Assembly (NCBI RefSeq): GCF_003479405.1
Contig: NZ_QUHB01000013.1
Span: 1-45,206 of the forward strand
DNA length: 45,206 nucleotides
Direction: 5' to 3'
Source: Eubacterium sp. AF16-48
Lineage (GTDB): Bacteria > Bacillota > Clostridia > Lachnospirales > Lachnospiraceae
In this document: positions 5,201 through 45,035 of the stretch, piece after piece
How positions within the stretch are numbered: the stretch's first letter is position 1
Layout: the number at the start of each line of letters is the position of its first letter
Program-made: the position numbers and the translations under genes
Notes under the pieces: model-generated
Database searches by the model: none
Seen by the model: only the letters and a program-made list of their open reading frames with translations
What the model was told of the DNA's origin: nothing

Positions 5201-5909
5201 ATATGGATATAGTACATTGTCACCATACATTAATTATACATATGATGAACATGTTGAATATCTCACTAACTGGTTAGAAACAAGAAATAAATGGATGTGC
5301 AGCCAGTGGAATATTAATTATAATACAGCGGGAAGTGAAACAATCAGTACAGACATTGATATTACAGGATATCAGATGACCTCTTCATTAAACGGCATAG
5401 CAGGAAATATGGGTATGCGTGTTGTATATGAGGTAGAGCCTACAGTTAATGGAAAGGAAGTTTCCGAAAAAGGACTTATTTACGGACTGGTTTATGGAAA
5501 CAATCCAATAAGTGAATCAGATTTAACATATGATTCATCCAGCGATTACGTAAAGAGATATATGGCTACCGATGCAGGAAAGTCAAGTGTTCAGTTAGGA
5601 GATTCAGAAACAGCATCATACTATGTAATGACAATGAGCTGTGATGCAGGAGATGGAACAGATAATGTAACAGCTAATGCATTTACTGCTAAATACTATG
5701 TAAGAGCATATGCAAAGTTAGCAGATGGCTCCATAGTTTACAGTAATGTGGATTCATATACTGTATACGATATTGCAGATTATATTTATCAGAATCAGTT
5801 AGTAAGCAACAAGTCTTCATATGACTATTTATATACTAAAATATTGAAATATGTAAACAGCAGTTATAAAGAGGGAGATTACGACTGGGGAAACATAGTG
5901 GTAAAATAA
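2295..5909 (+). CDS. Secreted GH16 beta-glucanase fused to a CBM, a CotH kinase-like domain and the shared C-terminal module
   Basis: The 1204-aa product has a signal peptide (1-30). A GH16 domain (about 39-292) carries the family signature EIDIME with E163, D165 and E168, the expected nucleophile, helper Asp and acid/base; GH16 members of this type usually cut beta-1,3- or mixed-linkage glucans. A CBM4/9-like domain (about 310-455), a Thr-rich linker, a small beta domain (about 478-575) and a second linker follow. A CotH-like domain (about 605-1010) shows IKLRGNSTS, KWCLLAN and GPLWDFDL; CotH proteins are atypical secreted protein kinases. Residues about 1019-1204 are the module shared with four neighbours. 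AGGAGGGGG precedes ATG 2295. Joining a glycosidase to a CotH domain is unusual. Confidence 0.88.
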   Translation: MFKKVMSLLTAVAVIIAGIQFTPANKVNAAVTSSGGSGSWKLVWSEDFNGNVGSGVDTSVWNYDTGNSGWGNNEIQNYTTSTNNVYIADTSWDSESSDGRCLAIKAQRENGQITSGRLTTKGKQFARYGKIECKMRVQNGSQSGVWPAFWMMGENGNWPNCGEIDIMEHRNTENTAIGTLHWNPGTSLWDSYNHVYAGSETNGQFGYIGSIEQWHRYSVEWYGDVMKWFVDDTCYETMSISSAAMEEFQRNHYILLNLAIGGPNTPFTQYQTVSDSFSNAIMYVDYVRVYQGSDSDFVINKKTENVTQPTQVDDGYTTCASDNTVNLGSWNYYVGSSWAGTAARYKGGSDLNDFSLKVTASGGQEWGMNAHTKKLSVTPGHTYSYSVTVNSNQAGASVFMKDEVGDINFGTKTLVSGDNVYSGTFKPTNDTVQFMFDLGKVAAGTTLNFKNVTLTDTTPSVIETTKAPEPTTVKPVTGDEEWITVDNSNNMYSYASADNITVVNVQHPGFANADGIYMSTKVAIGYVTINGNKVGNESVAIDGAGAVVYLTALSGTSTVAYYAQDGTLLGSVNIKKNETVPETTEAVTEATTERETHDMSKDPDDISRIYVVTDDANPTITKESKTPGTITVIGGEDGVNSVSDTGTIKLRGNSTSLADKAAYNISFSSKQTLFSGAKAAKKWCLLANAFDKTLIRNKLAMELGKELGMVATPEEHYADLYINGQLKGTYLVSEPADNGRSGVSYDETNDKEMMFELEADREEAGATYYTTNLGVRFVVEDPEGLGTDTAKYSNWVNTLSAFETALTDTSSDKVLDCINVDSFVDMYIVNELFNTVDFGYSSVKFYTKEDAKGNTIIYAGPLWDFDLSSGNSSVEECRKTDAFRCQQVNTWFGYLMKNSTFKNKVISKFRSMQPQIQNLYSENSLGISRINANLNYMGKSKDRNYSAISEGGAGWSQSTPDSAEYKYYPYGYSTLSPYINYTYDEHVEYLTNWLETRNKWMCSQWNINYNTAGSETISTDIDITGYQMTSSLNGIAGNMGMRVVYEVEPTVNGKEVSEKGLIYGLVYGNNPISESDLTYDSSSDYVKRYMATDAGKSSVQLGDSETASYYVMTMSCDAGDGTDNVTANAFTAKYYVRAYAKLADGSIVYSNVDSYTVYDIADYIYQNQLVSNKSSYDYLYTKILKYVNSSYKEGDYDWGNIVVK

Positions 5910-5928
5910 ATGGCACACAAATAGTACA

Positions 5929-5966
5929 TAAAGAGCTAAATACGAAGGAGGGTATTTGGCTCTTTT
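5929..5966 (+). terminator. Intrinsic terminator
   Basis: AAAGAGC and GCTCTTT form the outer stem, with AATAC/GTATT inside, followed by a short T run. It stands between the GH16 and GH76 genes and suggests they are at least partly separate units. Confidence 0.7.
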
Positions 5967-5989
5967 AAAATAAAAAAAGGAGGTACAAA

Positions 5990-8900
5990 ATGAATAAGTT
6001 TAAGAAATTTATTTCATTATTGCTTGTTGCAACCATGATTGTTACATTTTGCCCTAATGTTAGCATAGGACAAAGTGTTGAAGTAAAAGCCGCAACTTCA
6101 GGAATAACTAATGGTGCAACTTACACAATTGTATCTGCATATAATGGAAAGGCAATAACCCAGACTGACCTTTCAACATTTTATGCAAATTGCGTAGTTT
6201 GGAATACAGATGCAATGAGTAATTTAGCAAGATGGACATTAAAGGAAACGGGAGATTATTACAATATTACCAATGCAGTATCCGGTAAGAGCATAAAAAT
6301 AACCGGAAAAAATAATGGGGATAATATGGATTTAAACGGTAATGATAATTCTGATAACTACAGATGGAAACTGGTGCCTATTACATCAGGAACCTATGCA
6401 GGATGTTATTATATTGTTTCAGCGGTAAAGAATGATAGCGGTGAGGAAGAATATGCTGAAATTATTAGTGACGATGATAAAAAGGATACCGACGGTGCCC
6501 AGGTCAGATTATGGACAAAGGCAAAAAGCGTAGATTATGAGCCACGTCAGATATGGAGAATCCAGAAAAGTGACGTGGAGGATGCAACCTTTACAGAGGC
6601 AATGGCTGATAAGGCATTAGAGGCATTTAAAAATAAGTATTATGTAAAAAATTCAACCACAGGATATAACAGTTTAGGTGGCGGTTTCTGGGGAATTGCC
6701 GAAGTTATGGAAGCTATGCTTGATGGTTATGAAACTACAGGTAAATCTATTTATAAAGAAATGTTTCAAAATACATATAAAGATTTCATAGCAAGAAACG
6801 GAGATTACTGGTCAAATAATGATTTTAATGATGATATAGCCTGGGCTGTACTTGATTCAGTAAGAGCATATTTATTATTTGGAGACCAGAGTTACTTAGA
6901 TATTGCAAAGAAAAACTGGGACTTTATGTATAAAAGAGGAACAGAAGGAAGAACAGACGGACTTATCAGATGGTCTCATGAAAGCGGAAGAGGTGACGGA
7001 ACCACATCATGTATTAATGGTCCTGCCACAGTAGGAGCTTGTTATCTTGCAATTGCAACAGGTGATGAAAGTTACTATACCAAGGCAAAAAGCGTATTTG
7101 ATGCATGGAGAAACAGTTCATTGTATGTAAGAGAAGGTGATGATGCAGGACATGTATGGGATAGTCCAGGAAACAACTGGCGTTCTACATATAATCAGGG
7201 AACTTTCCTTGGAGCTGCAATTATGCTTTATGAAAAATATGGAACACAGCAGTATTATGATGATGCATGTAATGTAATGGCAAATACGGTAAAAGGCCTT
7301 TGTTACAATAATATTCTTAAGGAAGAGAACACAAACTCCGGTGACCTTTCAGGTATGCGTGGTATCCTTATGAGATATATGAGAAAGTTCATTGTAGATT
7401 TTAATAAAGGCGAGTATCTTTCATTCTTTAAGGACAATGCAAAAGTAGCATGGATGAATAGTAATTCAAAGGGAATTATGCAGTGTTCATGGCAGAAAAA
7501 GGCAGCAGAAGATGCTACATGGGATTCTTTTGCAGCATATAATGCTATTTCACTTATGGCAAATATTCCTACATATGCAGATAGTTTAGAGAGAGATGCA
7601 TATTCAAATATTGAAGCGGAAGATTTGGATTACTGTAAGGGACTTATTTCAGAAAATTCCAGTGGAACTAGTGGTGGCAGAAGTTTAGGAGGCGTAATGA
7701 ACGGAAACTATGCTGCTTACTATAACATTGATTTTGGAGATGCAGGAGCATCAAAGTTGACTTTCAAGTATTCAAGAAGTACCGAAAAAGAAGGTGCAAA
7801 TGGAACCATTGAATTTAGACTGGGAAGTACAACAGGTCCTCTTATAGCAAAGGCAAGTATTGAAAATACGGGAACATGGCAGAATTGGAAAGAAGTTACA
7901 ATTGATACGGCACGTATTACAGGAGTACAAAATGTATATGTAGTATTTAAGGCGGATACTACTCATGTTTGCAATTTTGACTATTTTAAATTTGCAAAGG
8001 CAACAAATGATGACCAGGGATACTTTTTCTTAAAGTCAGATTCATCTAATCAGTATGCAAAGTGTAAAAATGGAAGCAGCGATACAACAATTGTGGCGTC
8101 CAGCGACAAGAGAGATGAAGGGGAACAGTTTAAGATAATTAAGAACAGTGACGGAACAGTTTCCTTTAAGTCATTAATATCCGGAAAATATATATGCATG
8201 GTAAGTGAAGGTTCATATCTTACTGCAAGTACATCAGCAATTTATAACGGAGAAAAGTTCGTTATAGAAAGATATGCATCAGATACAAGTAAGAGTAAAC
8301 AGTTTGCCATTAAATCCATTGCCAATGGAAAATATCTGGCAGTTGATCCAAGTGGAGATAAGGCAATTCTTTCAACTTCCGACAGTATAGGAGGTTCATG
8401 GGAGACATTCCATATGGAAACTGTAAACGGTGAATGGATAGTACCGGATGGAACTATTTTGGTAGACAGCGCATATAAAGATGCATTCTCAAAAATAGAA
8501 GCTGAGAAAACAGACGATTTCAACGGAACAATTAATTATGATACATACCTTGGAAATACCAATGATGGAGAGTGGGCAAGATACGATAGTGTAAGATTTA
8601 CTAAAACTGCAAAGAGCATCATAATGAGATATTCAGTAAGAGGTAAGATTGCTACCGGAAAGGTTTCATTGTATTTAGACAGTTTAGACGGAACACCTGT
8701 CGGTGAATTTTATCTTACAGAAACAGCTGAGGACAGTTGGGATGCATATGTTGAAAAACAGTTTGCGCTGAAAACTGAAATAAGCGCCGGAGTACATAAT
8801 GTATATCTTAAATTTACACCGGACAGTGGAAAGACACATGTAGGAAATATTGACTATTTCTTATTTAGCGATGAAGCTTATGTGGAACCGACTATGGAAA

Positions 8901-9442
8901 GTGGAAGCATTAAAATAGAAGGATATCAGATAAGTGCTACCCGCAAAGGCAGCAGGGTTGTCGGTTCAGTAGAACCGACAATAGACGGAAAGAATGTTGT
9001 AGGATGGGGATTAATTTACGGAGTAAATAAAGCAGGTGGAAACACCTTTAATATCTCTGATGATGATATGCGTGTAAACAGTGACAGTAAGTATGTTGCA
9101 GCTTTAGATTCCACATCGCAGGGAACAACAGATACTGTATTTGGAAGCTCAGACACAGCTACATATTTTGTAAGGACAACGTTATTTGGTTCATTTACTT
9201 CGGTAGAGTATTCGGCAGAATACAAAATCAGAGCCTATGCAAAATTGTCAGACGGAACTTACAGATACAGCACTGTTAAGAGTTATTCAGTATATGATAT
9301 TGCAGATGTTTTGTATAAGAATGTTAAGATGAATACAATCACTGCACATGAGTATCTTTACAACAGCATTTTGAAAGTTGTAAATCCAAATTATGCTGAG
9401 GTTGATTACAGCTGGGGAAATGATTTAGTAGGAACAAATTAA
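5990..9442 (+). CDS. Secreted GH76 endo-alpha-1,6-mannanase with beta-trefoil and CBM6 modules
   Basis: The 1150-aa product has a signal peptide (about 1-35) and an N-terminal ricin-type beta-trefoil-like region (about 36-195). The GH76 domain (about 205-530) carries the paired catalytic aspartates D281-D282 in NDDIAWAVLD; GH76 enzymes cut alpha-1,6-mannan backbones such as yeast mannan. Then come CBM6-like (about 540-672), fascin/trefoil-like (about 680-815), CBM6-like (about 828-965) and the shared C-terminal module (about 973-1150, starting IEGYQIS and ending near VDYSWGNDLV). AAAGGAGG precedes ATG 5990. Next to a GH16 glucanase, it points to fungal cell wall as substrate, which is inference from the pair. 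Confidence 0.88.
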   Translation: MNKFKKFISLLLVATMIVTFCPNVSIGQSVEVKAATSGITNGATYTIVSAYNGKAITQTDLSTFYANCVVWNTDAMSNLARWTLKETGDYYNITNAVSGKSIKITGKNNGDNMDLNGNDNSDNYRWKLVPITSGTYAGCYYIVSAVKNDSGEEEYAEIISDDDKKDTDGAQVRLWTKAKSVDYEPRQIWRIQKSDVEDATFTEAMADKALEAFKNKYYVKNSTTGYNSLGGGFWGIAEVMEAMLDGYETTGKSIYKEMFQNTYKDFIARNGDYWSNNDFNDDIAWAVLDSVRAYLLFGDQSYLDIAKKNWDFMYKRGTEGRTDGLIRWSHESGRGDGTTSCINGPATVGACYLAIATGDESYYTKAKSVFDAWRNSSLYVREGDDAGHVWDSPGNNWRSTYNQGTFLGAAIMLYEKYGTQQYYDDACNVMANTVKGLCYNNILKEENTNSGDLSGMRGILMRYMRKFIVDFNKGEYLSFFKDNAKVAWMNSNSKGIMQCSWQKKAAEDATWDSFAAYNAISLMANIPTYADSLERDAYSNIEAEDLDYCKGLISENSSGTSGGRSLGGVMNGNYAAYYNIDFGDAGASKLTFKYSRSTEKEGANGTIEFRLGSTTGPLIAKASIENTGTWQNWKEVTIDTARITGVQNVYVVFKADTTHVCNFDYFKFAKATNDDQGYFFLKSDSSNQYAKCKNGSSDTTIVASSDKRDEGEQFKIIKNSDGTVSFKSLISGKYICMVSEGSYLTASTSAIYNGEKFVIERYASDTSKSKQFAIKSIANGKYLAVDPSGDKAILSTSDSIGGSWETFHMETVNGEWIVPDGTILVDSAYKDAFSKIEAEKTDDFNGTINYDTYLGNTNDGEWARYDSVRFTKTAKSIIMRYSVRGKIATGKVSLYLDSLDGTPVGEFYLTETAEDSWDAYVEKQFALKTEISAGVHNVYLKFTPDSGKTHVGNIDYFLFSDEAYVEPTMESGSIKIEGYQISATRKGSRVVGSVEPTIDGKNVVGWGLIYGVNKAGGNTFNISDDDMRVNSDSKYVAALDSTSQGTTDTVFGSSDTATYFVRTTLFGSFTSVEYSAEYKIRAYAKLSDGTYRYSTVKSYSVYDIADVLYKNVKMNTITAHEYLYNSILKVVNPNYAEVDYSWGNDLVGTN

Positions 9443-9460
9443 AATTTAATATAATTTAAT

Positions 9461-9507
9461 GAAGCTGCCATACGGGATAACATCAAAGCCGGTATGGCAG
9501 TTTTTTT
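9461..9507 (+). terminator. Intrinsic terminator
   Basis: CTGCCATAC pairs with GTATGGCAG and is followed by seven T. It ends the GH76 transcript. The next 190 bases hold an A-rich stretch and no gene; a TATAAT-like box near 9632 has no convincing -35 partner. Confidence 0.85.
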
Positions 9508-9700
9508 CTGATTTAGTTTACAAACTATCTTAATAGAGTTGAACGTTAAACCTAAAAAACGAATAAAAACACATAAAAAAAAGGACACCTGAAATAAAAA
9601 AATGTCACTCTAAATAATAAAAAATTAAGTTTATAATTAACATGTATAAATGTTTGCCATAGGCAGATAACAAATTTGGATCATTAAAGGAGGGAAAAAA

Positions 9701-12700
9701 GTGAAAGGATTAAAAAGGGTAAAAACATTTTTAACGTTGTTCCTTTCAGTCTGTATGGTATTCACATCAGTAACACCAACAGATTTAACTAAAGTCTTTG
9801 CAGAAGATGTAAAGACCACAGTGTATTTTTACAATGCTTCAAATTGGAGTGGAGTAGGAATACATGGGTACAATGACAGTGTAAGCGGTCAGTACACAGG
9901 AGACTGGAACACGACATTTATGGAAAAGGATGGAGATACAGGCTGGTATAAATATGAAATTAATGCAGATGTATCTAAAAATTATATTGATGTTATATTC
10001 TTTGATAAGGGTGACCCGGAAGGAGATCATGCTACACATAGAAGCCTATGTAAGGTAAATGACAGAGAGTATGTTTATTTTTCCATGAATGGTGCCAAGT
10101 ATTGTTCTAAGCTTGCAACAGAGGTGGCTTTAGGAAAGGTAGGAAGTTCCAAGGTTAAGAATGCTTTTTCAGGAACAAAAATAGCAGGTAATGTTATTGA
10201 GGCAGAGGACAATGACGATAAACATGCAGATATTAATAATGAAACAAACACAGATTACGGTCAAAGTGGTACAGGAAATATAGCCCATGTAAATGACGGA
10301 ACCTGGACTATGTATAATGTTAACTTTAACCGTGCAGCTTCAAAGTTTACAATAAGATATTCTGCAAAAAGTACAGTTGCAGGGGGAACTGTCAATGTAT
10401 ATTTAGACAGTATGGACAGCACACCTGTGGCAACTGTTGAAGTAACAGAGACAGGCTCAGAATGGAGTAATTTTGTATATAAAACAGTAGATGCCAACAT
10501 ACCGTCAGGTATTCATCAGGTGTACCTTAAATATTCCACATCTAAGGACTGGTGTGCTAATGTAGATTGTTTTTATTTTGAATCACCTTATGTGGATGCA
10601 GTAGGAACTCATGAAATAGAAAATGCTCATGAGACAATTTTAGGTCCGGCTAATGGCAGGGAAGTAAGTAGTAGTGGTAATTTCTCAAATGGAGCAGCCA
10701 TTGGAGGTTTAAATACATGGGAGGCAGATGGCAGAGCCTACACTACCACATATGTTAATGCCAAAAATGCAGGTACATACACATTTAAATTAAAGTATTC
10801 ATTAGAATGTGGAAAGGACACAAGAATTGATTATAGGATAAATGGTGATACTGACAGAGATTGGAGATCATGGACTTTAAAAGACCACAGTTCTTCATGG
10901 GATGAGGTAAAGGAATTTACAACTACGGTTTCACTTAAAAAGGGAATAAATGCCATTGATATTACAGGAGCCGTTAATACCGGTACTGATTGGAAATGGG
11001 TACGTTTAGATAACTTTGAACTTTCATATGTTTCTGAAAATAATTACAGCAAAAAAGCTTTCAGTTCAAGGGAAAATGTAGAATTAAACGGAGTACAGTT
11101 AGATGCAGGCCCTAAATCCTCAGGCAACATTGGAGGAGATGAAGGGGGAAAACTTACAGGTATAAAAGGCGAAGGATATGCAGAATATGATGTATATTTT
11201 GACAGAAAGGCATCAGGAGTAACCCTGTCATATTCTGTTGCAACGGATTGTGGTGGAACTGTTGAAATGTATGTGGATTCCATGAGTGGAGCACCGGTTA
11301 CAACCTTTGACTGTAACGACACTACAGGAGGTTGGAGCGCTTATGTAACCAAAACGGTGGATGTAAATATACCTGATGGAAACCATAAAATTTACTTTAA
11401 GGTAATACCTAGAATTGCCAACAGTTATTCAGTAAACCTGGGATGGTTTAAGTTTGCATATACTCCGGAAGAAATGAATATAAGACATGAAGCAGAAAAT
11501 GCCCATGCATATACTAAAGGTTCGGCATCAGGTGAATATAGCCTTGAAGTATTTTCAAATTATTCAGGAAAAACAGCTATAGGTGGCATGAATACATGGC
11601 CAAAGGACGGACGTGCATATCTTACACAGTATGTAAATGTAAAAGAAGATGGTTGTTATAACATAGTTGTGGGATACGCAAATGGTGGAGAATACGATAC
11701 CAACATTGATGTTCGTGTAAACAGTTCTGATGATAGTGCATGGAAAAGTATTTCTGCACCAAAGACAGGTGGCTGGAACAGTGTAGGTGAAATAAAAGCA
11801 ACTGTAGAATTAAAAGCAGGAGTTAATTATATTGATATTACCGGTGCTTCAAATATCTTGTACAACAAAGATAATGCATGGCAGCAGGTAAATATTGATT
11901 ACTTTGACATAGAGGATGACAACATTGCCAAAGGAAAAAAGGCATACGCTGAAAGTGAACAAAAAGAGGGCGAAACAGTTTATCCGGCAGATAATGCAGT
12001 TGATGGAGACAGTTCTACAAGATGGGCAAATAATAACGAAGGCGGATGGATTTATGTAGATTTAGAAAGCCTTTATGAAATAGAACGTGTAGAGGTATTG
12101 TTTGAAACAGCATATGCAAAGAGTTTTGAAATACAGACTTCAAAGGATGGAAAAACATGGGTTACATCAAAAACAGTTTCATCGGAGGATTTTATAGGGG
12201 ATAAAAATATTAAAAATGACGGGACTTATAATGGAAAAGTATTGTACACATCAAAAGACACATGCCTTGGAAAGGCAAGATATGTAAGAATTAAAGCTAA
12301 TGAAATGAATTCTTATCATAAGAAAATGTCTATATATGAGTTAAAGGTATATGGTACAAAAGTTCCGGGTTATCTGACAGATGTGGCAGTAAATAAGGAT
12401 ATAACATGTGATAGTGCAAGTACCGTAAATCCTGCAAAGTATGCTACAGATGGAAAAGATACAACTAAATGGACAGCAGGCAGCACACACCCTGAATATA
12501 CAATTGATTTAGGCAGGGAATATGGATTACGCAGTATAGATTTAAAGTATTCTAATGCTTATGCTAAGTCATTTAAAATTGCAACATCTAATGATGGAAC
12601 AAATTGGAAGGATTTAAAAAATGTTTCTCAATGGACTGAGCCGGGTAGTGCATCAGGATTAGGTGGAGACAAGATATTAGGATATAGTTTTCATTTTGAT

Positions 12701-15700
12701 GAGGTTAAAGCACGGTATGTTAAACTGTACGTTGATGAATGTGCAGACACCTCCCTTGGAATATCATTATATGAATTTGAAGTTTGGGCTAAGGATAATC
12801 AGAAGTCTGATTATTGGAATGAAGTAGGCAGCAAATCCCTTGGTGTTTACCCTGTATCAAAATTACAGGATACAAAATACGAAAATTCAGTAAGTGATAC
12901 ATATCCTTTAGGCGTTATAGATTCATCCCTTGTAACAGGAGATATCCTGTTATCAGGTGACACATATGAGGTTGTGTATGATTCAGGCAACAGAAATGTG
13001 TTCTTCTATGTTAATCCAAGAGACATAAACGTAGATTACGACAAGCAGGAAGTATTCTGGTCTAATGGTAATAGCGGAGCATCTCTGTGGGGAGCTGACA
13101 ACCACGATGAAAATATTGCAAAATATATTGCAAAACAACAGGCAACGGTACAATATCAGTTACCGGAAAATTTGGATTTTGGTGACAGTGATTATGTAAC
13201 TACACAGATTGGATGCAGAATATATAATCGTTCGGATATTGGAACTGACGGATATCCTGTAAGTGGAGCAAAACCGGTATTTTCAATAAAATTTAATCTT
13301 AAAATACTAAACTCCCATGGAATTTACATTGAGGATTCAATTATGAAAAATGGTACCCTTAATGTAAAGAATGCAGGTTCAGATACAACTTATTCATGGG
13401 AAAAAAGTGAAGATGGTAAAAATTGGCAGACAGTATCAGAAAAGAGAAAAGATGTACAGGTTATAAGTAATAATGGAGCGAGGGTAAATGTTGCTGATGA
13501 CTTAGGTGGAGGATACTACTATAGAGTTAAAGCCGAAAATGGCAAGTGGTCACAGCCTTATCATGTTCAGTATTATAACGATGTTCAAAACGGTGATTTT
13601 GAGTTTCCTGCAATGTTTTCACATGATGAGGAAAAAGATAAGTCAATGGATGCAAGATTCCCATATAACTCAAATGGTGATGAGCAGCAGTATCCTAACG
13701 GATTTGACGGATTATTCTGGAAAACAACAGGACCGGGATATTACAACACCCGTAACCGCCATAAAACAACTCATGATATTGAAATTGTAAATGGAAGAAA
13801 CTTAAGAACTGACAGTGAGACAAAACAGCAGGTCGGATTCTCGGTTTCACAAAAAGATATGTATGGTGATAATTCCCATGGCGACCAGTTCGCAGAATTA
13901 AACTGTGAGGAACAGGGAGCATTATATCAGGATATACTTACAACACCGGGTTCAGAATGTTACTGGGATTTAGACCATGCAGCAAGAAGGGTATCAAATG
14001 GAGCAACAAACTCCATGCTTGTTGTGGCAATGTCTACTAATGATGCCTTAAATTACACAAAGGATACTGAAATTGAAAAAATTGTTACTGCTGCTACAAA
14101 TCAGGGAGTTACAGATGCAGTATCAACTGAATACGAGAACGGAAAGGTAATTACTTTAGATAATGGAGTACAGGCTACAGTTTGGAAAGTTACCAGCACC
14201 GCTACAGCAGGTGAGTGGAAACATAATAGTGGTAAATATACAGTACCTGTTGCTGACAAGAACTATTTAACAAGATTTTTCTTTGTATCTATTGATGGTA
14301 CAGATGGAAACAGAACAATAGGTAACCTTCTTGACAATGTAACTTTTGAACAGAAGAAGCAGTACAAGATTAAGTATGTTGTAAACGGGGAAGAAGTATA
14401 TACAACAACAGGTATTGTTGCCCCTTATGACAGAGTAGACATACCGGATACTCTTCCGGAAGATGTTAAGGATAGTGATGGAAATCACATTAATCTTTCA
14501 GAATACACGTTAAAAGAAAGCAACATATTAAAATATAAGAGGGATTCAGAAGGAAACATTATATATGATGGAACAACTCCTCGTACAGAAGAAAAGGGAT
14601 ATTACATTGATAATAATGACAGAAGATTTACTGTAGCGTATGACCATGATACATTAATTCTTTACTATCAAAGTGGAATAGTTACCCTTACCAAAAGAGT
14701 GGAGGGACTGACGGAAATACCTGATGATTATAAGGTAAAACTTACCGTAAAAGATGGAGATACTGAAAAGTATTCAAAGACTTTTGCAAAAAGTGATTTT
14801 ACTGCAATTGATAATGCAGACGGTGAGACATCAGATAGTTTCTTTGCAACAGTTTCTTTTGAAGCAGCAGGTGTTTTAGATTCAGGAAAGACATATACGG
14901 TAACAGAGGAAGAGGTTAAAACGATGATTGGAACTTCATTCTATCTGTCACAGGTAACAGCCGGAAAAACAGTGAATAGTGTTCCTGTTTCTAAATTATC
15001 AGAAACCTCTGTTTCATATAGTGGTACAGCTTTTGTATATAACCCAAATACTGATAACAGCGAGTTATTTGTAAATACATATAAGCCAACCCACAAAGTA
15101 ACCATTGAGAAGAAGGTTGCAGGAAATATGGGGGAACAGGAAAAGCTATCAAAGAGTTTTAGCTTTACGGCAGGTATTGCATTAGGAATGGAAAGCGTAA
15201 ATGCTGTATTGTGTACAGATACTTCTGTTACAAACAGTGAAAAAGGAAAGTACAAATTTAGCTTGAAAGATGGAGAAAGTATTTCATTTATTGTATATGA
15301 CGGATGTGCCATAACAGTTACTGAAACGAAAGAGGAATGGTATTCTACTACTTATACAGTGGGTGGAGTGGATACTTCAATAAATAAAGAAGCTAAGGTT
15401 GAAGATAATTTCGACCCATTAGTGACAACAAATGCAATTAATAAAGATGTAAATATCTTATGTACAAATACAAGTGAAGACTTAGGTGATGTAGAAGTAC
15501 AGGGATATCAGATGAACGTCAGCAATGTAAAGGGAGCACCGGCTGAGTTCTCGCCATCATTCAGAGTTGTTTGCCGTGTAAGCAAAAATACAATTAAGAG
15601 AAGAAAAGTTGTAAAGGCAGGAGTTATTTTTGGAACAGCCAACGCAGTGGGAACAGGAGCAGATGCAGTTAAGAATCTGACGATTCCTAAATCCTCAAAT

Positions 15701-16528
15701 CTGAACAATGACGGAACAGCAGGAGCAGAAAAGGACGGTGTAGATGGAAAAATAAAGGATAATATATATTATCACGAAGAGACCACAGGTGGATATTATG
15801 GAGACTGGACAACAAGAGAGGACGACCCACATCCATATACACATTGGAATTATTATGCTCTTACTTTCTATGCTACATCCTATATGTATGGAATGTTGAC
15901 ACAGAATTTAACATACCGTGCATATGCAGTTGTAGAGGGAACGGCAGATAATTATGATTATCAGGAAGATGGCAAATACTATAAGTATGAGTATGGCAAT
16001 GACATATATACAATTAATATGTACGAAATTGCCCGGAACCTTTATGAGAATCAGAAAATGAGTACACAGACTGCTCATAACTATCTGTACAATAACGTTC
16101 TTAACATAGTAAATATGGACAAAAACAGATTACAAATTGCCAATGCCATGATGGTTAAACTTAATATTAAATCTAAAGGTCATGATTATAATCTTGTAAA
16201 TGCATGCTACAAAAGTATGTATGATTATGTACATTGTCTTGGAGGATATAAGTATAGTCAGAGGGAAAGTTCAGTGCCAAATAAAGATTTTGCCATGAAG
16301 AAGTACAATACAGACGGAAGTATTGGTGATTATAATAAAGAGCTTCTTGAAAGGTTAAATACGGCTTCAGGCACAAAATATGATACTCTGTCCCAGTGGA
16401 TTTACTACGAAGTTGAAAAAACAGAGGTAAACAAATCACCGGGCAAATACTATACAGGATACTACAGAATGTCACAATATTCCTGGAACAACGGAATAAT
16501 AACAGATTATGATGTGGATGAAGAGTAA
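9701..16528 (+). CDS. Giant secreted multi-CBM protein with prealbumin-like domains and the shared C-terminal module
   Basis: The 2275-aa product starts at GTG 9701 after AAAGGAGGG. Visible order: signal peptide (1-34); CBM26-like starch-binding fold (about 37-140); CBM6-like (165-295); CBM35-like (300-445); CBM6-like (450-590); CBM35-like (595-735); two F5/8-type-C/CBM32-like domains (740-888, 889-1030); an unassigned region (1032-1290); a lectin-like domain starting NGDFEFP (about 1297-1550); a region with repeat-like beta strands (1555-1655); two prealbumin/SpaA-like domains (about 1658-1795 and 1798-1925); and an expanded form of the shared module (about 1927-2275). I see no catalytic domain. 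It may be a glycan-binding scaffold or adhesin. Domain limits are estimates by eye. Confidence 0.82.
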   Translation: MKGLKRVKTFLTLFLSVCMVFTSVTPTDLTKVFAEDVKTTVYFYNASNWSGVGIHGYNDSVSGQYTGDWNTTFMEKDGDTGWYKYEINADVSKNYIDVIFFDKGDPEGDHATHRSLCKVNDREYVYFSMNGAKYCSKLATEVALGKVGSSKVKNAFSGTKIAGNVIEAEDNDDKHADINNETNTDYGQSGTGNIAHVNDGTWTMYNVNFNRAASKFTIRYSAKSTVAGGTVNVYLDSMDSTPVATVEVTETGSEWSNFVYKTVDANIPSGIHQVYLKYSTSKDWCANVDCFYFESPYVDAVGTHEIENAHETILGPANGREVSSSGNFSNGAAIGGLNTWEADGRAYTTTYVNAKNAGTYTFKLKYSLECGKDTRIDYRINGDTDRDWRSWTLKDHSSSWDEVKEFTTTVSLKKGINAIDITGAVNTGTDWKWVRLDNFELSYVSENNYSKKAFSSRENVELNGVQLDAGPKSSGNIGGDEGGKLTGIKGEGYAEYDVYFDRKASGVTLSYSVATDCGGTVEMYVDSMSGAPVTTFDCNDTTGGWSAYVTKTVDVNIPDGNHKIYFKVIPRIANSYSVNLGWFKFAYTPEEMNIRHEAENAHAYTKGSASGEYSLEVFSNYSGKTAIGGMNTWPKDGRAYLTQYVNVKEDGCYNIVVGYANGGEYDTNIDVRVNSSDDSAWKSISAPKTGGWNSVGEIKATVELKAGVNYIDITGASNILYNKDNAWQQVNIDYFDIEDDNIAKGKKAYAESEQKEGETVYPADNAVDGDSSTRWANNNEGGWIYVDLESLYEIERVEVLFETAYAKSFEIQTSKDGKTWVTSKTVSSEDFIGDKNIKNDGTYNGKVLYTSKDTCLGKARYVRIKANEMNSYHKKMSIYELKVYGTKVPGYLTDVAVNKDITCDSASTVNPAKYATDGKDTTKWTAGSTHPEYTIDLGREYGLRSIDLKYSNAYAKSFKIATSNDGTNWKDLKNVSQWTEPGSASGLGGDKILGYSFHFDEVKARYVKLYVDECADTSLGISLYEFEVWAKDNQKSDYWNEVGSKSLGVYPVSKLQDTKYENSVSDTYPLGVIDSSLVTGDILLSGDTYEVVYDSGNRNVFFYVNPRDINVDYDKQEVFWSNGNSGASLWGADNHDENIAKYIAKQQATVQYQLPENLDFGDSDYVTTQIGCRIYNRSDIGTDGYPVSGAKPVFSIKFNLKILNSHGIYIEDSIMKNGTLNVKNAGSDTTYSWEKSEDGKNWQTVSEKRKDVQVISNNGARVNVADDLGGGYYYRVKAENGKWSQPYHVQYYNDVQNGDFEFPAMFSHDEEKDKSMDARFPYNSNGDEQQYPNGFDGLFWKTTGPGYYNTRNRHKTTHDIEIVNGRNLRTDSETKQQVGFSVSQKDMYGDNSHGDQFAELNCEEQGALYQDILTTPGSECYWDLDHAARRVSNGATNSMLVVAMSTNDALNYTKDTEIEKIVTAATNQGVTDAVSTEYENGKVITLDNGVQATVWKVTSTATAGEWKHNSGKYTVPVADKNYLTRFFFVSIDGTDGNRTIGNLLDNVTFEQKKQYKIKYVVNGEEVYTTTGIVAPYDRVDIPDTLPEDVKDSDGNHINLSEYTLKESNILKYKRDSEGNIIYDGTTPRTEEKGYYIDNNDRRFTVAYDHDTLILYYQSGIVTLTKRVEGLTEIPDDYKVKLTVKDGDTEKYSKTFAKSDFTAIDNADGETSDSFFATVSFEAAGVLDSGKTYTVTEEEVKTMIGTSFYLSQVTAGKTVNSVPVSKLSETSVSYSGTAFVYNPNTDNSELFVNTYKPTHKVTIEKKVAGNMGEQEKLSKSFSFTAGIALGMESVNAVLCTDTSVTNSEKGKYKFSLKDGESISFIVYDGCAITVTETKEEWYSTTYTVGGVDTSINKEAKVEDNFDPLVTTNAINKDVNILCTNTSEDLGDVEVQGYQMNVSNVKGAPAEFSPSFRVVCRVSKNTIKRRKVVKAGVIFGTANAVGTGADAVKNLTIPKSSNLNNDGTAGAEKDGVDGKIKDNIYYHEETTGGYYGDWTTREDDPHPYTHWNYYALTFYATSYMYGMLTQNLTYRAYAVVEGTADNYDYQEDGKYYKYEYGNDIYTINMYEIARNLYENQKMSTQTAHNYLYNNVLNIVNMDKNRLQIANAMMVKLNIKSKGHDYNLVNACYKSMYDYVHCLGGYKYSQRESSVPNKDFAMKKYNTDGSIGDYNKELLERLNTASGTKYDTLSQWIYYEVEKTEVNKSPGKYYTGYYRMSQYSWNNGIITDYDVDEE

Positions 16529-16549
16529 TCAGATACGGAGGTAGTAAAA

Positions 16550-16720
16550 ATGAGAAAATTATACGAAACACCTGAAATCCTGGTTACCAAGTTTGATGTT
16601 AATAAAAGGGTTATGGTGGAATTAGAAACAGGAAACGAAAAGCCGGGAGACAGATGGAATGCCGGAGTGGATATAATAAGTGGTAATTACGTTCCTCCGG
16701 ACTTAGATTTGCTTGGTTAG
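16550..16720 (+). CDS. Short peptide of the YETPEI-FDVN family (56 aa)
   Basis: This small gene lies 21 bases after the giant gene and 43 before the next, with CGGAGG correctly placed before ATG 16550. The product begins MRKLYETPEILVTKFDVN and continues RVMVELE, then a Gly/Asn-rich tail ending DLDLLG. It shares YETPEI, a Val at the same place, FDVN, Arg and MV with the peptide at 19400-19573, while the C-terminal halves diverge. It has no signal peptide or membrane segment and no Cys. A conserved leader with a variable tail is reminiscent of peptide precursors, but no maturation gene is nearby. The function is unknown. Confidence 0.65.
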   Translation: MRKLYETPEILVTKFDVNKRVMVELETGNEKPGDRWNAGVDIISGNYVPPDLDLLG

Positions 16721-16763
16721 TGCGGTTTTTAGCATATAAGACGTATAGGAAAGTGAGATAAAT

Positions 16764-19019
16764 ATGAAAGTAATATATAAAAAAATAATTGCATTTATCT
16801 GTGTGCTATCAATGATTGTATCAACTTTTGCAATGAATCCCGGTACTGTAAGTGCAGGTACTGATGAAGACGGATTCACTCAGCTTTCAACAACAAAAAA
16901 CGTTGAACAGGCATTGGGAAAATGGTCAAAGATATATAAGGCAAGTACATGGGCACAGCCTACAGATGTATCCATAAAAGGAGAAGGAGCTTCTTTTGAT
17001 GATTTAGCAATCAAAATTAACTCCTCAAATGGGGCTACAACAGGTGATGATAGGTGGGCAATACAGGTACACTATCCTGTGTCAGGACTTGACCCGGCAA
17101 AAACATATAAATGTACCATAAAGTACACATCAACAAAGGCAGGAAATATGTTATATAAACCTGATGGAATAGCAGGTAGGAATGATAATATTTATCCGGC
17201 AGTTGAAGGTGAAAACACTATAACAGATACAATTACGGGAGTGACAGGTTTTACGGCGGTGTTTGCATTATGTGGTATGCCGAATGGATGTATAGTGGAT
17301 TTTACATCAATTTCAGTTGTAGAGGAAAGTGAAGAAACAACTACAGTTTCGGAACCGGTTACAACGCCGGAAATTAAAGACGGAACAGAATTGCTTAAGG
17401 ACACGGAATTTGAGGAAGGCAATGTTACTCATTGGGATGAATATGGTGGAAATAAATACACTAATCAGGGCAATGGAAAGTTAAAAGTTGAAATTCCGGC
17501 TTATGAAAGTGGTGATAACTGGGCAACACAGTTAGTTCAGAAGAATATTCAGTTGTATGAAGGTAAATGGTATGTGGCGCAATTTAAAATCACTTCTGAT
17601 GTGGATAAGTCATTTCAGCTTTTGATTCAGAGTGATGGAAACAATGGTGGTGACTGGACAGTATTTGCTAAGGAGGATGTTGATGTTTCGGCAGGGGAAA
17701 CTAAAACAGTTCAGATACAGTTTCAGGCAAATCAGAGCACAGCAGCTAATGTATTGTACGGAATAATGATGGGTTACATTAATGGTGCCAGTAAAGCAGC
17801 CAATGTTACAATTGAGAATGTAAGCCTTAAGGTGTATAACGATGAACAGCAAATTAGCGGAACACAAACTGTTTTACTTGCCAGTGATGATGTTTCAGTA
17901 TCAGGCTTTCAGATGAAAACTAACTGGTCTGAGGAAGATGAAAATCAGGGATTAGTGGGATTTAGAACAGTATGTAAGGCACCAAACATTGGCGGTAGAA
18001 TTACAGTTGGAAAGGTTTCCTACACAGTTGCTAAATTTGGAACTCTTTATACAATAGAGCCGGACCAGGGTATTCCTGATGGAACATCCTTTACAGCTTC
18101 AGGAACATTATTAAAAAGTTACAATTTAAATGATGAAACAGCAGAAACTGTTAATCCTTTTACTCTTGCAGCTACAGCTACGGAAAATGCCATTAAGGAG
18201 AAGGACGATACATATTCATCATATGTACAGACAATGCAGGATACAATTGATAACCTTCACCCGGGAAATAAAATACATGTAAGAGCTTTTGTGGTAACAA
18301 CAGGTGGAACAATAATTTACAGTACAAAATCTGTTTCTACATGTATTGCAAGGGTGGCATCATACATGTATCAAAAGAGTCTGGCATCTAATTACAGAGG
18401 CCATGAATATCTTTATAAAAGTATTCTAAACGTAGCACAGTTTGTTCCGGCAGAAAAGTATACGGGATATTTTACAACTAAAGGTAATCCATATTACAGA
18501 GATTCTAAGGTTGTGTATGGATGGAATGACAATCTGTATACACCGGATGGTGACGATTATATGAATATAAAACCGGATGTATTTTTGGGAAAAGACTATC
18601 TAAGTGCTACTACAGGCTATAGTGGTGATCCGGCTAGTGTAAATAAAAATACCAGAGGTGGGGTTATAAGCATTTCAGGTGTTAAATATGATAATGGTAT
18701 TTCCACAAATGCCAATGGTTACTTTGAATATAGCGTTCCTAAGAATGCAAAATACTTTATGGGAATTGCAGGTATAGATGATAGTGTGGTAAGTGATGCT
18801 AACTATGGCAAGGCATCAGTTAAATGTGAAGTATCTTTTGACGGTTCTACTGCAATAACTACAGGTGTATTAACCTACGGAAAGTCACAATACATTAAAG
18901 TGGAAGTTCCACAGGGTGCCACTAAGGTGACAATTAAATTTAATGATGCAGGAGATGGAATCACCTGCGACAGAGCTTCCATGGGAAATGCCGGATGGTT
19001 GGTTGATAAAAACTATTAG
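16764..19019 (+). CDS. Secreted CBM4/9-like and NPCBM protein with the shared module
   Basis: The 751-aa product has a signal peptide (1-32), a beta-sandwich resembling CBM4/9 (about 33-190), a Thr/Pro linker, a clearer CBM4/9-like domain (about 207-365, starting ELLKDTEFEEG), the shared module (about 377-592, from VSVSGFQMK to VVYGWNDN) and, unlike its neighbours, a domain after the module. That last domain (about 605-751) fits NPCBM, with FMGIAGIDD and a terminal region of the expected form. No catalytic domain is present. AGGAAAGTGAG stands before ATG 16764. It likely binds polysaccharide outside the cell together with the hydrolases upstream. Confidence 0.8.
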   Translation: MKVIYKKIIAFICVLSMIVSTFAMNPGTVSAGTDEDGFTQLSTTKNVEQALGKWSKIYKASTWAQPTDVSIKGEGASFDDLAIKINSSNGATTGDDRWAIQVHYPVSGLDPAKTYKCTIKYTSTKAGNMLYKPDGIAGRNDNIYPAVEGENTITDTITGVTGFTAVFALCGMPNGCIVDFTSISVVEESEETTTVSEPVTTPEIKDGTELLKDTEFEEGNVTHWDEYGGNKYTNQGNGKLKVEIPAYESGDNWATQLVQKNIQLYEGKWYVAQFKITSDVDKSFQLLIQSDGNNGGDWTVFAKEDVDVSAGETKTVQIQFQANQSTAANVLYGIMMGYINGASKAANVTIENVSLKVYNDEQQISGTQTVLLASDDVSVSGFQMKTNWSEEDENQGLVGFRTVCKAPNIGGRITVGKVSYTVAKFGTLYTIEPDQGIPDGTSFTASGTLLKSYNLNDETAETVNPFTLAATATENAIKEKDDTYSSYVQTMQDTIDNLHPGNKIHVRAFVVTTGGTIIYSTKSVSTCIARVASYMYQKSLASNYRGHEYLYKSILNVAQFVPAEKYTGYFTTKGNPYYRDSKVVYGWNDNLYTPDGDDYMNIKPDVFLGKDYLSATTGYSGDPASVNKNTRGGVISISGVKYDNGISTNANGYFEYSVPKNAKYFMGIAGIDDSVVSDANYGKASVKCEVSFDGSTAITTGVLTYGKSQYIKVEVPQGATKVTIKFNDAGDGITCDRASMGNAGWLVDKNY

Positions 19020-19031
19020 GAGTAAACTACT

Positions 19032-19256
19032 AAATATACTAATTGGGTAAATACTCTTACAAATTTTGAAACAGCACTGAAAAATACATCTTCAGATGAC
19101 GCTCTTAAATATATTGATACAGATTCCTTTGTGGATATGTATATAGTTAATGAGTTGTTTAAAACCGTGGATTTTGGCTATAGTTCAGTTAAATTCTATA
19201 CGAAAAAGGATTCATCAGGAAATGAATGGATATGTTCTCAGTGGAATATAAACTAA
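19032..19256 (+). pseudogene. CotH-domain remnant with an internal deletion
   Basis: A 74-codon frame without a start begins KYTNWVNTLTNFETALKNTS and contains SFVDMYIVNELFKTVDFGYS. It is closely related to the CotH part of the gene at 2295-5909. After SSGNE it jumps to WICSQWNIN, which in the intact gene comes well over 100 residues later, past the GPLWDFDL motif. The N-terminal part and the middle are therefore gone. A terminator follows directly. Confidence 0.85.
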
Positions 19257-19267
19257 AAAGTTAAAAA

Positions 19268-19308
19268 GAAAGCGCATTGGACTTTTACGAGGCCGGTGCG
19301 TTTTTTTG
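19268..19308 (+). terminator. Intrinsic terminator
   Basis: AAAGCGCATTGG pairs with CCGGTGCG plus T residues (with G-U pairs), followed by seven T. It ends transcription from the CBM genes and the CotH remnant. Confidence 0.8.
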
Positions 19309-19333
19309 ATTTAAAAAGCAAAAAAATAAAAAT

Positions 19334-19378
19334 GTTTCCGACGAGTTGCCGCTGACCGAAGGGAGGGGGCGGTACATA
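19334..19378 (+). promoter_or_regulatory. Copy B of the conserved 45-nt leader motif
   Basis: The 45 nt match 281-325 at 37 positions with no gaps, including GTTTCCGA, TGCCGCTGACCG, AGGGAGG and TACATA. It lies 21 bases before the short peptide gene at 19400. The upstream GGAAAC and hairpin seen in copy A are missing; instead a terminator lies 25 bases upstream. It is either a truncated copy or shows that the 45-nt core is the functional unit. Confidence 0.5.
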
Positions 19379-19399
19379 GTATGATAGGAGAATGATATT

Positions 19400-19573
19400 A
19401 TGAAACGTAATAAATATGAAACACCGGAAATTGTTGTCAATAGATTTGATGTTAATACAAGAACCATGGTAGATATAATTGATGGTGATGTTGTTACAAA
19501 ATCAGATCAGGATTTGTCAATTCCGGAAGTTACCACATTACCTAACTTACCACATTCAGGTGGAGGAATGTAA
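19400..19573 (+). CDS. Short peptide of the YETPEI-FDVN family (57 aa)
   Basis: ATG 19400 follows TAGGAG at normal spacing. The product begins MKRNKYETPEIVVNRFDVNT and continues RTMVDIIDGD, ending in a Pro/Gly-rich tail (PHSGGGM). The first 24 residues align without gaps to the peptide at 16550-16720; the rest does not. It has no signal peptide or Cys. Copy B of the leader motif lies directly upstream, and a gene made almost only of the shared C-terminal module lies downstream. The function is unknown; a regulatory, signalling or accessory peptide is possible. Confidence 0.62.
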   Translation: MKRNKYETPEIVVNRFDVNTRTMVDIIDGDVVTKSDQDLSIPEVTTLPNLPHSGGGM

Positions 19574-19620
19574 TAAACTAAAATATTTTAGTGATATATA
19601 ATATATAACAGGCAATTAGA

Positions 19621-19656
19621 TTACGCATCGATGTTTTTATTAATGTCGGTGCGCAA
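19621..19656 (+). promoter_or_regulatory. Hairpin between peptide gene and 262-aa gene
   Basis: TTACGCATCGATG and its downstream partner ending GTCGGTGCGCAA form a stem of about 11 pairs with G-U pairs and one mismatch. No T run follows, so it is a weak terminator at best; it may be an mRNA processing or stability element. Confidence 0.4.
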
Positions 19657-19689
19657 TTTGTAAAAACAGGATTTATGAAAGGATAAAGT

Positions 19690-20478
19690 ATGTTAAAGAA
19701 AGCGGGAAATATTTTTATTATATTAGCATTTATTGCTTTAGGTGGAATTATGGGAAATTGTGTAAAGGCAGAGGAAACCCTTATAAGCTCTAAAGTAGGA
19801 ATAACCGGTTTTCAAATAAGAATGTCTAACAATACAGATGAGTTAAACATTGCTTTCAGGGTAGTGGGAAATGCACCGAACAAGGGAAGTATTATAACTT
19901 TAAATGGTGTGGATTACAAAGTAAAGGAATATGGAACCATATACACACTTGACCCTAATACAACAGGCTACGAAAGTAAAGATAAGTTAAATAATACATA
20001 TACATTACTTGACCCTACGGATTATTCATCCCTTAATATGGGCTTTAGGTACAGAGGAATAAAAAAATATAATTTTAATGGAAATAATTTAAGTCCTACA
20101 TTTGGGTATATGGAGGAAAAAGGAATAGCCATAAACTGGAATATTGATGATAAAGAAAATACATATTATGTGCGTACAATGGAAATGATGAATGATTTTG
20201 TGGCTAACAGTATTCATATAAGAACCTTTGTTACGGCAGAATATAATACCGATGGCGAAGCTAAAACAGCTATTATATACAGCGAAAACGTACGTTCCAT
20301 ATCAGTAGCACAAATAGCAAATTATTTCTATTTAAATAACATGGCAAATAATCAAAATCAGCATAATTACATATACAATAACATACTTCATAATACAGAA
20401 GTTTTAAGCAGGAAAAATCCTTATTATTTAAAGCAACCTGTGGAATATGGCTGGAATGGGGGAGTTGTAAATCCTTAA
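19690..20478 (+). CDS. Secreted protein consisting of the shared C-terminal module alone
   Basis: The 262-aa product has a signal peptide (about 1-27, ending CVKA) and then only the module seen at the C-termini of four larger neighbours. It starts VGITGFQIRM, contains YYVRTMEMM, IRTFVT, NYIYNNIL and ends VEYGWNGGVVNP. It is closest to the version in the 751-aa protein; both share AFRVVGNAPN/GFRTVCKAPN, a GxxYxVxxxGTxYT segment and a Y-G-W-N end. A free-standing copy shows the module folds by itself and marks its limits. GAAAGGA precedes the ATG. The function is unknown; cell-surface attachment or assembly of the larger proteins is inference. Confidence 0.75.
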   Translation: MLKKAGNIFIILAFIALGGIMGNCVKAEETLISSKVGITGFQIRMSNNTDELNIAFRVVGNAPNKGSIITLNGVDYKVKEYGTIYTLDPNTTGYESKDKLNNTYTLLDPTDYSSLNMGFRYRGIKKYNFNGNNLSPTFGYMEEKGIAINWNIDDKENTYYVRTMEMMNDFVANSIHIRTFVTAEYNTDGEAKTAIIYSENVRSISVAQIANYFYLNNMANNQNQHNYIYNNILHNTEVLSRKNPYYLKQPVEYGWNGGVVNP

Positions 20479-21070: not shown

Positions 21071-21325
21071 TATATGAATAAAAAAGACTTTGATAGAGAC
21101 AGTAATTTATCAGTAAAAATCAAAGAGAGTCCGTTGATGGTGAGAGCGGATATGAGTAGCTGATATATGAAAATCACTCTGGAGTTGCAACCCGAAGTAT
21201 TTTCGTAGGCGTTGACGGTATCCTCCGTTAAAGGGAGCACATATAAAGGGTTATTCCGAGTATGCTGTTAAAGGTGGTTAAACGAAAATTACAGGCTTTC
21301 GTCCTTTGCAGGACGGAAGCCTTTT
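21071..21325 (+). promoter_or_regulatory. ileS T-box: T-box leader (Ile) controlling ileS
   Basis: The leader has a basal helix (CTTTGAT with ATCAAAG), the stem I distal loop TGATGGTGAGAG, a specifier loop region with ATC (Ile) at 21173-21175, and the antiterminator core AAAGGTGGTTAAACG (about 21270-21284), which matches the conserved T-box sequence that binds the tRNA acceptor end. A terminator hairpin follows. Uncharged tRNA-Ile would favour antitermination and ileS expression, as known for this family. The T-box core is somewhat divergent from AGGGTGGTACCGCG. Confidence 0.88.
21294..21325 (+). terminator. T-box terminator hairpin
   Basis: GGCTTTCGTCC pairs with GGACGGAAGCC around a 6-nt loop and is followed by TTTT. 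It is the alternative to the antiterminator of the T-box. Confidence 0.85.
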
Positions 21326-24600: not shown

Positions 24601-24819
24601 CAGACAATGCGTAAGGAAGCCGGATTTGAAGTAATGGATAAGATTATAGTGAATGTAGATAAAAATGCTAAAATTGAGGACATTATTAACAACAATCTTG
24701 ACGAAATTAAATTAGAAGTGTTGGCAGAAAAGGTAGAATTTGGTAAAATGAGTGGGTATAGTAAAGAGTGGAATATCAACGGTGAAAACGTAAGTTTAGG
24801 CGTTGAGAAGATCTCTTAA
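21661..24819 (+). CDS. ileS: Isoleucyl-tRNA synthetase
   Basis: The 1052-aa cytoplasmic enzyme attaches isoleucine to tRNA-Ile. The class I signatures are visible: HIGH at residues 55-58 (in GKPHIGHV) and KMSKS at 603-607. The editing (CP1) domain with TTTPWTLPSN and the anticodon-binding C-terminal part are complete. The length and the opening YDGPPTANGKPHIGH resemble the eukaryote-like (type 2) IleRS found in many Clostridia, a type often less sensitive to mupirocin; that property is known of the family and not shown here. GAAAGGAG precedes the ATG. A T-box and a long repeat-rich leader lie upstream. Confidence 0.97.
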   Translation: MYKKVSTNLNFVEREKQTEKFWRDNDIFKKSMDSRKEGETYTFYDGPPTANGKPHIGHVLTRVIKDMIPRYQTMKGHMVPRKAGWDTHGLPVELEVEKKLGLNGKEQIEEYGMEPFIKQCKESVWKYKGMWEDFSGTVGFWADMDNPYVTYDDNFIESEWWALKTIWDKKLLYKGFKIVPYCPRCGTPLSSQEVAQGYKSVKERSAIVRFKVVGEDAYFLAWTTTPWTLPSNVALCVNPNDTYIKVKANDGYTYYIAEALADNVLGKLATDDAPAYEVLETMKGADLERKEYEPLYDCAKQVADKQRKKGFYVTCDTYVTMSDGTGIVHIAPAFGEDDANVGRKYELPFVQFVNDKGEMTEETPFAGLFVKKADPEVLKDLDAKGQLFDAPKFEHDYPHCWRCDTPLIYYARESWFIKMTAVKDDLVANNNTVNWIPKSIGEGRFGNWLENVQDWGISRNRYWGTPLNIWECCDCGCQESIGSRAELAEKSGNPDDAKVELHRPYIDKVTFKCKECGGTMKRVPEVIDCWFDSGAMPFAQHHYPFENKELFEQQFPADFISEAVDQTRGWFYSLMAESTLLFNKAPYKNVIVLGHVQDENGQKMSKSKGNAVDPFEALEKYGADAIRWYFYINSAPWLPNRFHGKAVEEGQRKFMGTLWNTYAFYVLYAEIDQFDPTKYTLDYDKLSVMDKWLLSKMNSMVKAVDDNLGNYRIPEAARALDDFVDEMSNWYVRRSRERFWAKDMPQDKINAYMTLYTALVTVAKAAAPMIPFMTEDIYQNLVRSVDKSAKESIHLCDFPKVNEAHIDKELEENMERVLKIVVLGRACRNKSNIKNRQPIGKMFVKAGFELPEFFKEIITEELNIKEVEFTEDVRAFTSYSFKPQLRTVGPKYGKFLGKIKEALANLDGNAAMDKINAGEPLTFDFDGNEVVLEKEDLLIDMAQVEGYVSESDGNVTVVLDTNLSEELIEEGFVREVISKIQTMRKEAGFEVMDKIIVNVDKNAKIEDIINNNLDEIKLEVLAEKVEFGKMSGYSKEWNINGENVSLGVEKIS

Positions 24820-44919: not shown

Positions 44920-44931
44920 ATCCAAAGGTTG

Positions 44932-44975
44932 AAATAAAATAACTTTTCCAGCTCGCTGAGAAAAGTTATTTTATT
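44932..44975 (+). terminator. Intrinsic terminator after purB
   Basis: AATAAAATAACTTTTC pairs with GAAAAGTTATTTTATT around a 10-nt loop. The long A/T stem with flanking A and T can act in both directions. Confidence 0.75.
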
Positions 44976-45035
44976 AACAACCTGCAAACACATAAGGATG
45001 AAAAAATTTTCGCAAGAAAATTTTGAAAATCCGCA

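Follow-up and report, generated by a model that had tools for sequence, protein, structure and literature searches.

The secreted-protein cluster upstream of ileS

The window analyzed here, a stretch of 45,206 nucleotides from Eubacterium sp. AF16-48 (contig NZ_QUHB01000013.1, positions 1 to 45,206), carries five genes whose products share one protein module of ~170 to 230 residues (349 in the largest protein), which is the subject of this study. These genes belong to a run of seven on the plus strand (293-20478), each encoding a product with an N-terminal signal-like sequence. The run lies upstream of the isoleucyl-tRNA synthetase gene ileS (21661-24819, identified by Pfam), which is controlled by a T-box leader (21081-21309, E of 5e-21) and serves as a syntenic marker; it, its leader, and all genes and domains of the cluster listed below are on the plus strand. 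The first two genes end in a lysine-rich fibronectin type III (Fn3)-like domain: gene 293 (293-1483) encodes a secreted-type protein without the module, in which a PT-rich linker (PF04886, E of 7e-9) is followed by this domain at ~1169-1480, and the secreted-type product of gene 1504 (1504-2073) carries it at 1753-2070.

The module is present in the products of the five following genes, whose front parts are unlike one another in Pfam. Gene 2295 (2295-5909) encodes a secreted-type protein with glycoside hydrolase (GH) family 16 (residues 96-246) and CotH (648-1001) domains and the module at its end (residues 1019-1204; 5349-5906). The secreted-type product of gene 5990 (5990-9442) has a GH76 domain that is joined by CBM6, CBM35, and ricin-type lectin domains (CBM, carbohydrate-binding module), again with the module at the end (residues 970-1150; 8897-9439). 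The product of gene 9701 (9701-16528) is a giant secreted-type carbohydrate-binding protein with CBM26, four stretches of CBM6, two of F5/8, and a DUF7601 (15092-15394, E of 1.3e-11) preceding its terminal module (15479-16525); an FctA-like stretch before DUF7601 stays below threshold, with an E of 0.006 and a score of 17.8 bits where 22.1 are required. In the secreted-type product of gene 16764 (16764-19019), a CBM4_9 domain is followed by the module (~residues 371-595; 17874-18548) and then by an NPCBM domain (residues 612-743; 18597-18992, E of 4.5e-21). Finally, gene 19690 (19690-20478) encodes a 262-aa protein consisting of a signal peptide and the module (residues 31-262; 19780-20475) and nothing else, as an earlier reading of the sequence alone had noted. 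The sequence-only reading had also called the module C-terminal, which holds as a rule and not as a defining property, since NPCBM follows the module in the 16764 protein. Its remark that the five proteins lack LPXTG motifs, S-layer homology (SLH) domains, and choline-binding repeats agreed with a motif scan near the protein ends and with the Pfam listing.

Several features accompany this cluster. Two GA-cis RNAs (RF02987; 240-327, E of 1e-10, and 19287-19380, E of 7e-8) precede gene 293 and the 262-aa module gene and sit close to where this cluster begins and ends; a scan of seven relative loci turned up none at gathering score. The listed ATG of gene 293 falls within the first of these RNAs, and by eye a methionine codon downstream of it, at ~344, is the likelier start, which would yield a normal-looking signal peptide. 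At the far end of the window, a Clostridiales-1 RNA (RF01699, E of 4e-21) lies at 44917-45086, where the 43489 gene ends.

One domain family and its distribution

The five modules recognize each other. Profiles built from four copies retrieved the fifth with E values of 1.1e-25 (2295), 3e-23 (5990), 3.9e-14 (9701), 8.1e-20 (16764), and 1.0e-17 (19690), the best of 1,000 shuffles of the left-out module per run reaching only 0.009 over all five runs, and no other protein among the 22 of the window appeared in the best eight rows of any run. The modules of the 2295 and 5990 proteins are 46% identical. The landmark residues named in the sequence-only reading proved real in an alignment of 57 copies, in which G9, R20, G38, and Y140 never vary and Q11, Y41, R112, Y124, H151, Y155, I158, L159, and Y166 are kept in at least 90%; the expansion it saw in the giant is a long insertion ahead of the final Y-S-W. 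Structure prediction for the 5990 copy (mean predicted local confidence, pLDDT, 94.4; predicted template modeling score, pTM, 0.86) gave an immunoglobulin (Ig)/Fn3-like beta-sandwich closed by two C-terminal helices, and the copy of the 262-aa protein was predicted at a pLDDT of 80.8. The prediction bears some likeness to CBM56 and CBM21, as it does to many Ig-like folds.

A strong match of the five segments to a described domain was looked for in Pfam, NCBIfam, and PDB sequences, and none was significant. At E up to 10, Pfam gave weak matches at most (best E of 0.066), with no Fn3 family and no dockerin type I (PF00404) listed; NCBIfam had no match over the module, and PDB sequences gave nothing better than an E of 0.4. 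In one relative's copy, a CBM_15 match (E of 0.014) stayed below its cut-off. Judged by sequence, the module is a single homologous domain family, and it is apparently undescribed, as had been proposed.

Among the genomes sampled, clear copies are restricted to the Lachnospira group. With the 57-row profile at an E of ≤1e-5, used for the main genome searches, the module was found in 3 of 299 genomes of a Lachnospiraceae family sample, counting the query's own center genome and one genome (G270) with a weak partial match (5e-7). All three genomes of a neighboring genus carry it, in 66, 58, and 59 copies, and in the genus to which a record titled Lachnospira belongs, 21 of 23 genomes have 1 to 41 copies; G293 and G318 are the two without a match among these 26 genomes. 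The module has been massively duplicated in part of the group, other members having few copies. At class level, weak matches alone (E of 2e-5 to 9e-4) came from 8 of 390 further genomes, at least one of which, to a DNA polymerase I (L111), is due to chance, and at order level a second profile found three clear and three weak carriers among 392 genomes. In three of the loci retrieved (L108, L112, and L116), the matching segments may belong to a broader C-terminal beta-sandwich of clostridial secreted proteins, for which no Pfam model was found at E up to 10. Profile comparison linked them to the sandwich part of the module with a probability of 95% over 112 columns, the alignment ending before the two helices. 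This link is tentative because the segments had been picked by their match to the module profile itself and because the DNA polymerase I scored equally.

The position next to ileS recurs in relatives, whose loci are mostly titled metagenome-assembled genomes (MAGs). In L047 and L049, which bear the title Lachnospira, the genes immediately ahead of ileS encode a giant and a module protein like that of 16764, and in L048 one module protein gene occupies this position. Contig C22 of G006, the relative with 58 modules, holds a cluster of nine module genes (79.6-126.9 kb, loci L071 to L074) that includes a giant and a 262-like protein, lies ~9 kb from ileS, and has two basic Fn3-like domain genes at its upstream end. 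Counterparts of the standalone protein occur in relatives at 60 to 87% identity.

Carrier proteins and exchange of their end domains

Carriers nearly always have a single module, with a predicted signal peptide and no other recognized anchor. Signal peptides and membrane helices were called by simple script heuristics: in 786 kb of G006, an ordinary-looking signal peptide was predicted for all 30 module proteins, and a membrane helix further on for none of them. In a redundant set of 227 complete module proteins (12 of 239 were left out for open ends), neither an LPXTG-type motif near the end nor a later transmembrane segment was found (0 of 227 for each). This sets them apart from sortase substrates, although sortases were found in 23 of 23 genomes searched. 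Among 160 nonredundant complete carriers (15 of 256 were dropped), the module is C-terminal in 141, alone in 7, right after the signal peptide in 5, and internal in 7, and only two proteins have two copies.

Forty carriers, hand-picked from the module open reading frames (ORFs) of loci L001 to L049 with near-duplicates and incomplete ones left out, were scanned with Pfam; members were counted per family, so that one protein may count in several. GH18 was found in eight, GH16 and CBM5/12 in seven each, Glyco_hydro_cc (which we take to be GH128) in four, GH81 in three, GH76, GH43, and alpha-1,3-glucanase (presumably GH87) in two each, and subtilase and CotH in one each. The same module is carried by proteins of differing families, GH16, GH18, GH43, GH76, GH81, alpha-1,3-glucanase, subtilase, and CotH, and the enzyme set suggests that the main substrate could be the fungal or yeast cell wall. 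All 26 genomes of the two Lachnospira-group genera have GH81 enzymes, in up to eight copies, whereas 1 of 40 genomes from elsewhere in the family has them. These enzymes are independent of the module, since G293 and G318 have GH81 and no module match. The group looks equipped for beta-1,3-glucan through these GH81 beta-1,3-glucanases, whether its members have many modules or not.

The lysine-rich Fn3-like domain of genes 293 and 1504 differs from the module in charge (median net charge of +32 over 34 proteins, against -2 over 57 module copies), and no homology was detected between the two (14% probability over 17 columns). It had matches in 46 of 150 family genomes and possibly acts as a charge-based retention domain. 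It was also seen on many secreted-type proteins, including some in loci L069, L074, L085, L086, and L090. In a redundant set of 1,728 ORFs and proteins, the module was found in 256, the basic domain in 72, and the two together in none.

The GH81 enzymes show how the two domains relate. Of 40 genes fetched, hand-picked from 101 matches, 10 end in the module, 18 in the basic domain, and 12 in neither, with no gene having both; by eye, the last 12 comprise 8 with an F5/8-like end, 2 with a lysine-rich Big_2-like end, 1 cut inside an apparent basic domain, and 1 outside the group. Mapped onto a tree of the catalytic domain, the module requires three changes of label with 40 rows and at least four with 42 rows, the two added rows being long module-bearing forms omitted from the first tree. 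All these changes, which may be gains or losses, are forced by well-supported branches; the tree program warned of long branches in both trees. One GH81 group is present as single copies per genome, ending in the module (G004 and G006), in the basic domain (G293 and G316), or in neither (G005, G321, and G322), a pattern that orthologues would be expected to show. The two kinds of end stand on paralogues in the largest group, where G314 and G321 each have both a module-ended and a basic-ended enzyme. Beyond GH81, a module protein and a basic-domain protein within one G006 cluster are 77.7% identical over 305 aa, and differing ends also stand on similar fronts in G006 and G004 (67.7% over 744 aa) and in two L001 genes (66% over 283 aa). 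Altogether, these GH81 and other pairs show that the module and the basic domain are alternative ends of related proteins, and since the two domains are unrelated, this is replacement and not divergence.

A different arrangement was found in L031 (209-8292), where three neighboring genes each encode a single C-terminal cohesin and a fourth encodes a dockerin/leucine-rich repeat (LRR) protein. Ahead of the cohesin, the first protein (407 aa) has a signal peptide and the module, the second (302 aa) has a long hydrophobic helix at its N terminus that by eye looks uncleaved, and the third (421 aa) has a Big_2 domain in a lysine-rich stretch together with a collagen-like stretch. In this series, the module appears to replace a membrane-type anchor, if the helix is indeed uncleaved and the basic domain wall-binding. 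As an observation in its own right, this operon of a Lachnospiraceae MAG looks like a cellulosome-like system in miniature, with what would be three different modes of attachment. Cohesins (PF00963) were found in 6 of 23 genomes searched and not in G006, and dockerins in 7 of 15 genomes with one to three matches each. Because cohesins are rare in module carriers, the cohesin-dockerin pair is not the module's own mechanism.

Probable retention on the cell surface and its alternatives

The homology of the copies, the predicted signal peptides of their carriers, the copy number, the restriction to one lineage among the genomes sampled, the exchange with the basic domain, and the independence of position are best explained, with a probability that we put at about 55%, by a lineage-specific module for noncovalent retention on the cell surface, working in the manner of CBM37. 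After export, the folded module would bind something constant in the envelope of its own cell, whether a glycan linked to the wall or a protein on the surface. Enzymes as well as glycan-binding proteins, many of them of fungal-cell-wall type, would in this way stay on the cell and work side by side. The basic Fn3-like domain would do the same job through its charge, while the nearly neutral module would need a specific contact. The earlier suggestion that the module is how these proteins stay on the cell is the best-supported reading, carried by the exchange and by the L031 series; the binding, the ligand, the surface location, and the role of the basic domain are inferences.

The closest parallel is CBM37 of Ruminococcus albus. 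A published account (PMC4081043) describes CBM37 as unique to this species, three strains of which have 77, 51, and 102 copies, as demonstrated to fasten enzymes to carbohydrates of the bacterial cell wall, and as carried by enzymes of which many Ruminococcus flavefaciens orthologs bear dockerins instead. A second account gives 64 CBM37 proteins for R. albus 7 and 34 to 35 proteins with binding modules and no catalytic domain (PMC4300822). The module is likewise limited to one lineage, present in many copies per genome in part of the group, and found on many enzyme types and on noncatalytic proteins. Related enzymes bear the basic Fn3-like domain in its place, in part between paralogues, and this would be a further parallel if the basic domain is an attachment module. 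The module differs from CBM37 in its host group, in carriers that are often of fungal-wall types, and in being rarely repeated, against the 11 to 18 proteins per strain reported with tandem CBM37 (PMC4081043). A tblastn search of the module against a plasmid collection including the R. albus 7 plasmids gave nothing, and no CBM37 sequence was identified for comparison. By this likeness in genomic signature, the module is a new domain family in a probably CBM37-like role, and over its history it has alternated with a different terminal domain. The FPm-1 terminal domain of Fibrobacter succinogenes, common to many secreted hydrolases of one lineage (PMC3079729), is basic by name and, by that description, nearer to the lysine-rich Fn3-like domain than to the module.

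The main rival, which we regard as a serious but clearly less probable explanation, is that the module is a new substrate-targeting CBM, most likely for a fungal cell-wall polysaccharide. The wealth of fungal-wall-type enzymes among the 40 scanned carriers, the apparent likeness of the predicted fold to CBM56 and CBM21, the subthreshold CBM_15 match, and the giant and the 16764 protein, for which Pfam shows binding-type domains alone, would all fit such a role. However, an identical type of module sits on enzymes for chitin, beta-glucan, alpha-glucan, and mannan as well as on subtilase and CotH proteins, and second copies in one protein are rare exceptions, in contrast to CBM6, which is repeated in the giant. 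Moreover, related enzymes carry the basic domain instead, and in L031 the module stands in series with a membrane-type helix. Docking onto a scaffold on the cell through protein-protein contact, with dockerin-like logic, seems unlikely. Dockerins occur in high copy number with one per enzyme, and the module resembles dockerin type I in both respects; the 262-aa protein could serve as an assembly subunit, and one module is found on a cohesin protein. Yet the five modules have no dockerin match, known cohesins are missing from the 58-module relative and from 17 of the 23 genomes searched, and no multicopy partner domain was noticed in the approximately one-quarter of one genome that was viewed, without a systematic search.

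Two further explanations are much less probable. As Ig/Fn3-like folds are frequent spacers, the module could be a passive structural end cap or spacer without a ligand, which we consider very improbable given up to 66 copies per genome, the near invariance of the polar residues Q11, R20, R112, and H151, and a standalone version kept in relatives. Less credible still is a C-terminal secretion or sorting tag read during export, the sense taken here of the secretion or assembly tag that the sequence-only reading had offered as the other role. Its predominantly C-terminal position would suit such a tag, but this role is disfavored because N-terminal and internal copies occur, which also distinguishes the module from sorting signals such as the C-terminal domain (CTD) of the type IX secretion system (T9SS); in addition, the module is predicted as a full folded domain, and the G006 carriers have ordinary-looking signal peptides.

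Retention on the cell surface remains our preferred explanation, and it invites a broader and more speculative proposal, which we hold to be rather doubtful as a whole. The Lachnospira group may build a dedicated surface machine against fungal walls, in which a single new module, bound to a single new receptor, would hold chitinases, beta-1,3- and alpha-1,3-glucanases, mannanases, proteases, and giant glycan-binding proteins alike; the module-only protein of 262 aa would be a subunit for assembly or capping. This machine would have partly displaced an older, charge-based retention by the lysine-rich Fn3-like domain that is widespread in the family.

The route by which Gram-positive gut bacteria without cellulosomes retain their secreted enzymes is often unknown, and here a gut and rumen group carries up to 66 copies per genome of one apparently undescribed module. 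A single pull-down could expose both the organization of the exoproteome and the receptor, and the swap between the module and the basic Fn3-like domain supplies matched natural pairs for probing the role of each. The Lachnospira group is usually regarded as made up of pectin users; the enzyme set described here suggests fungal or yeast walls as its target.
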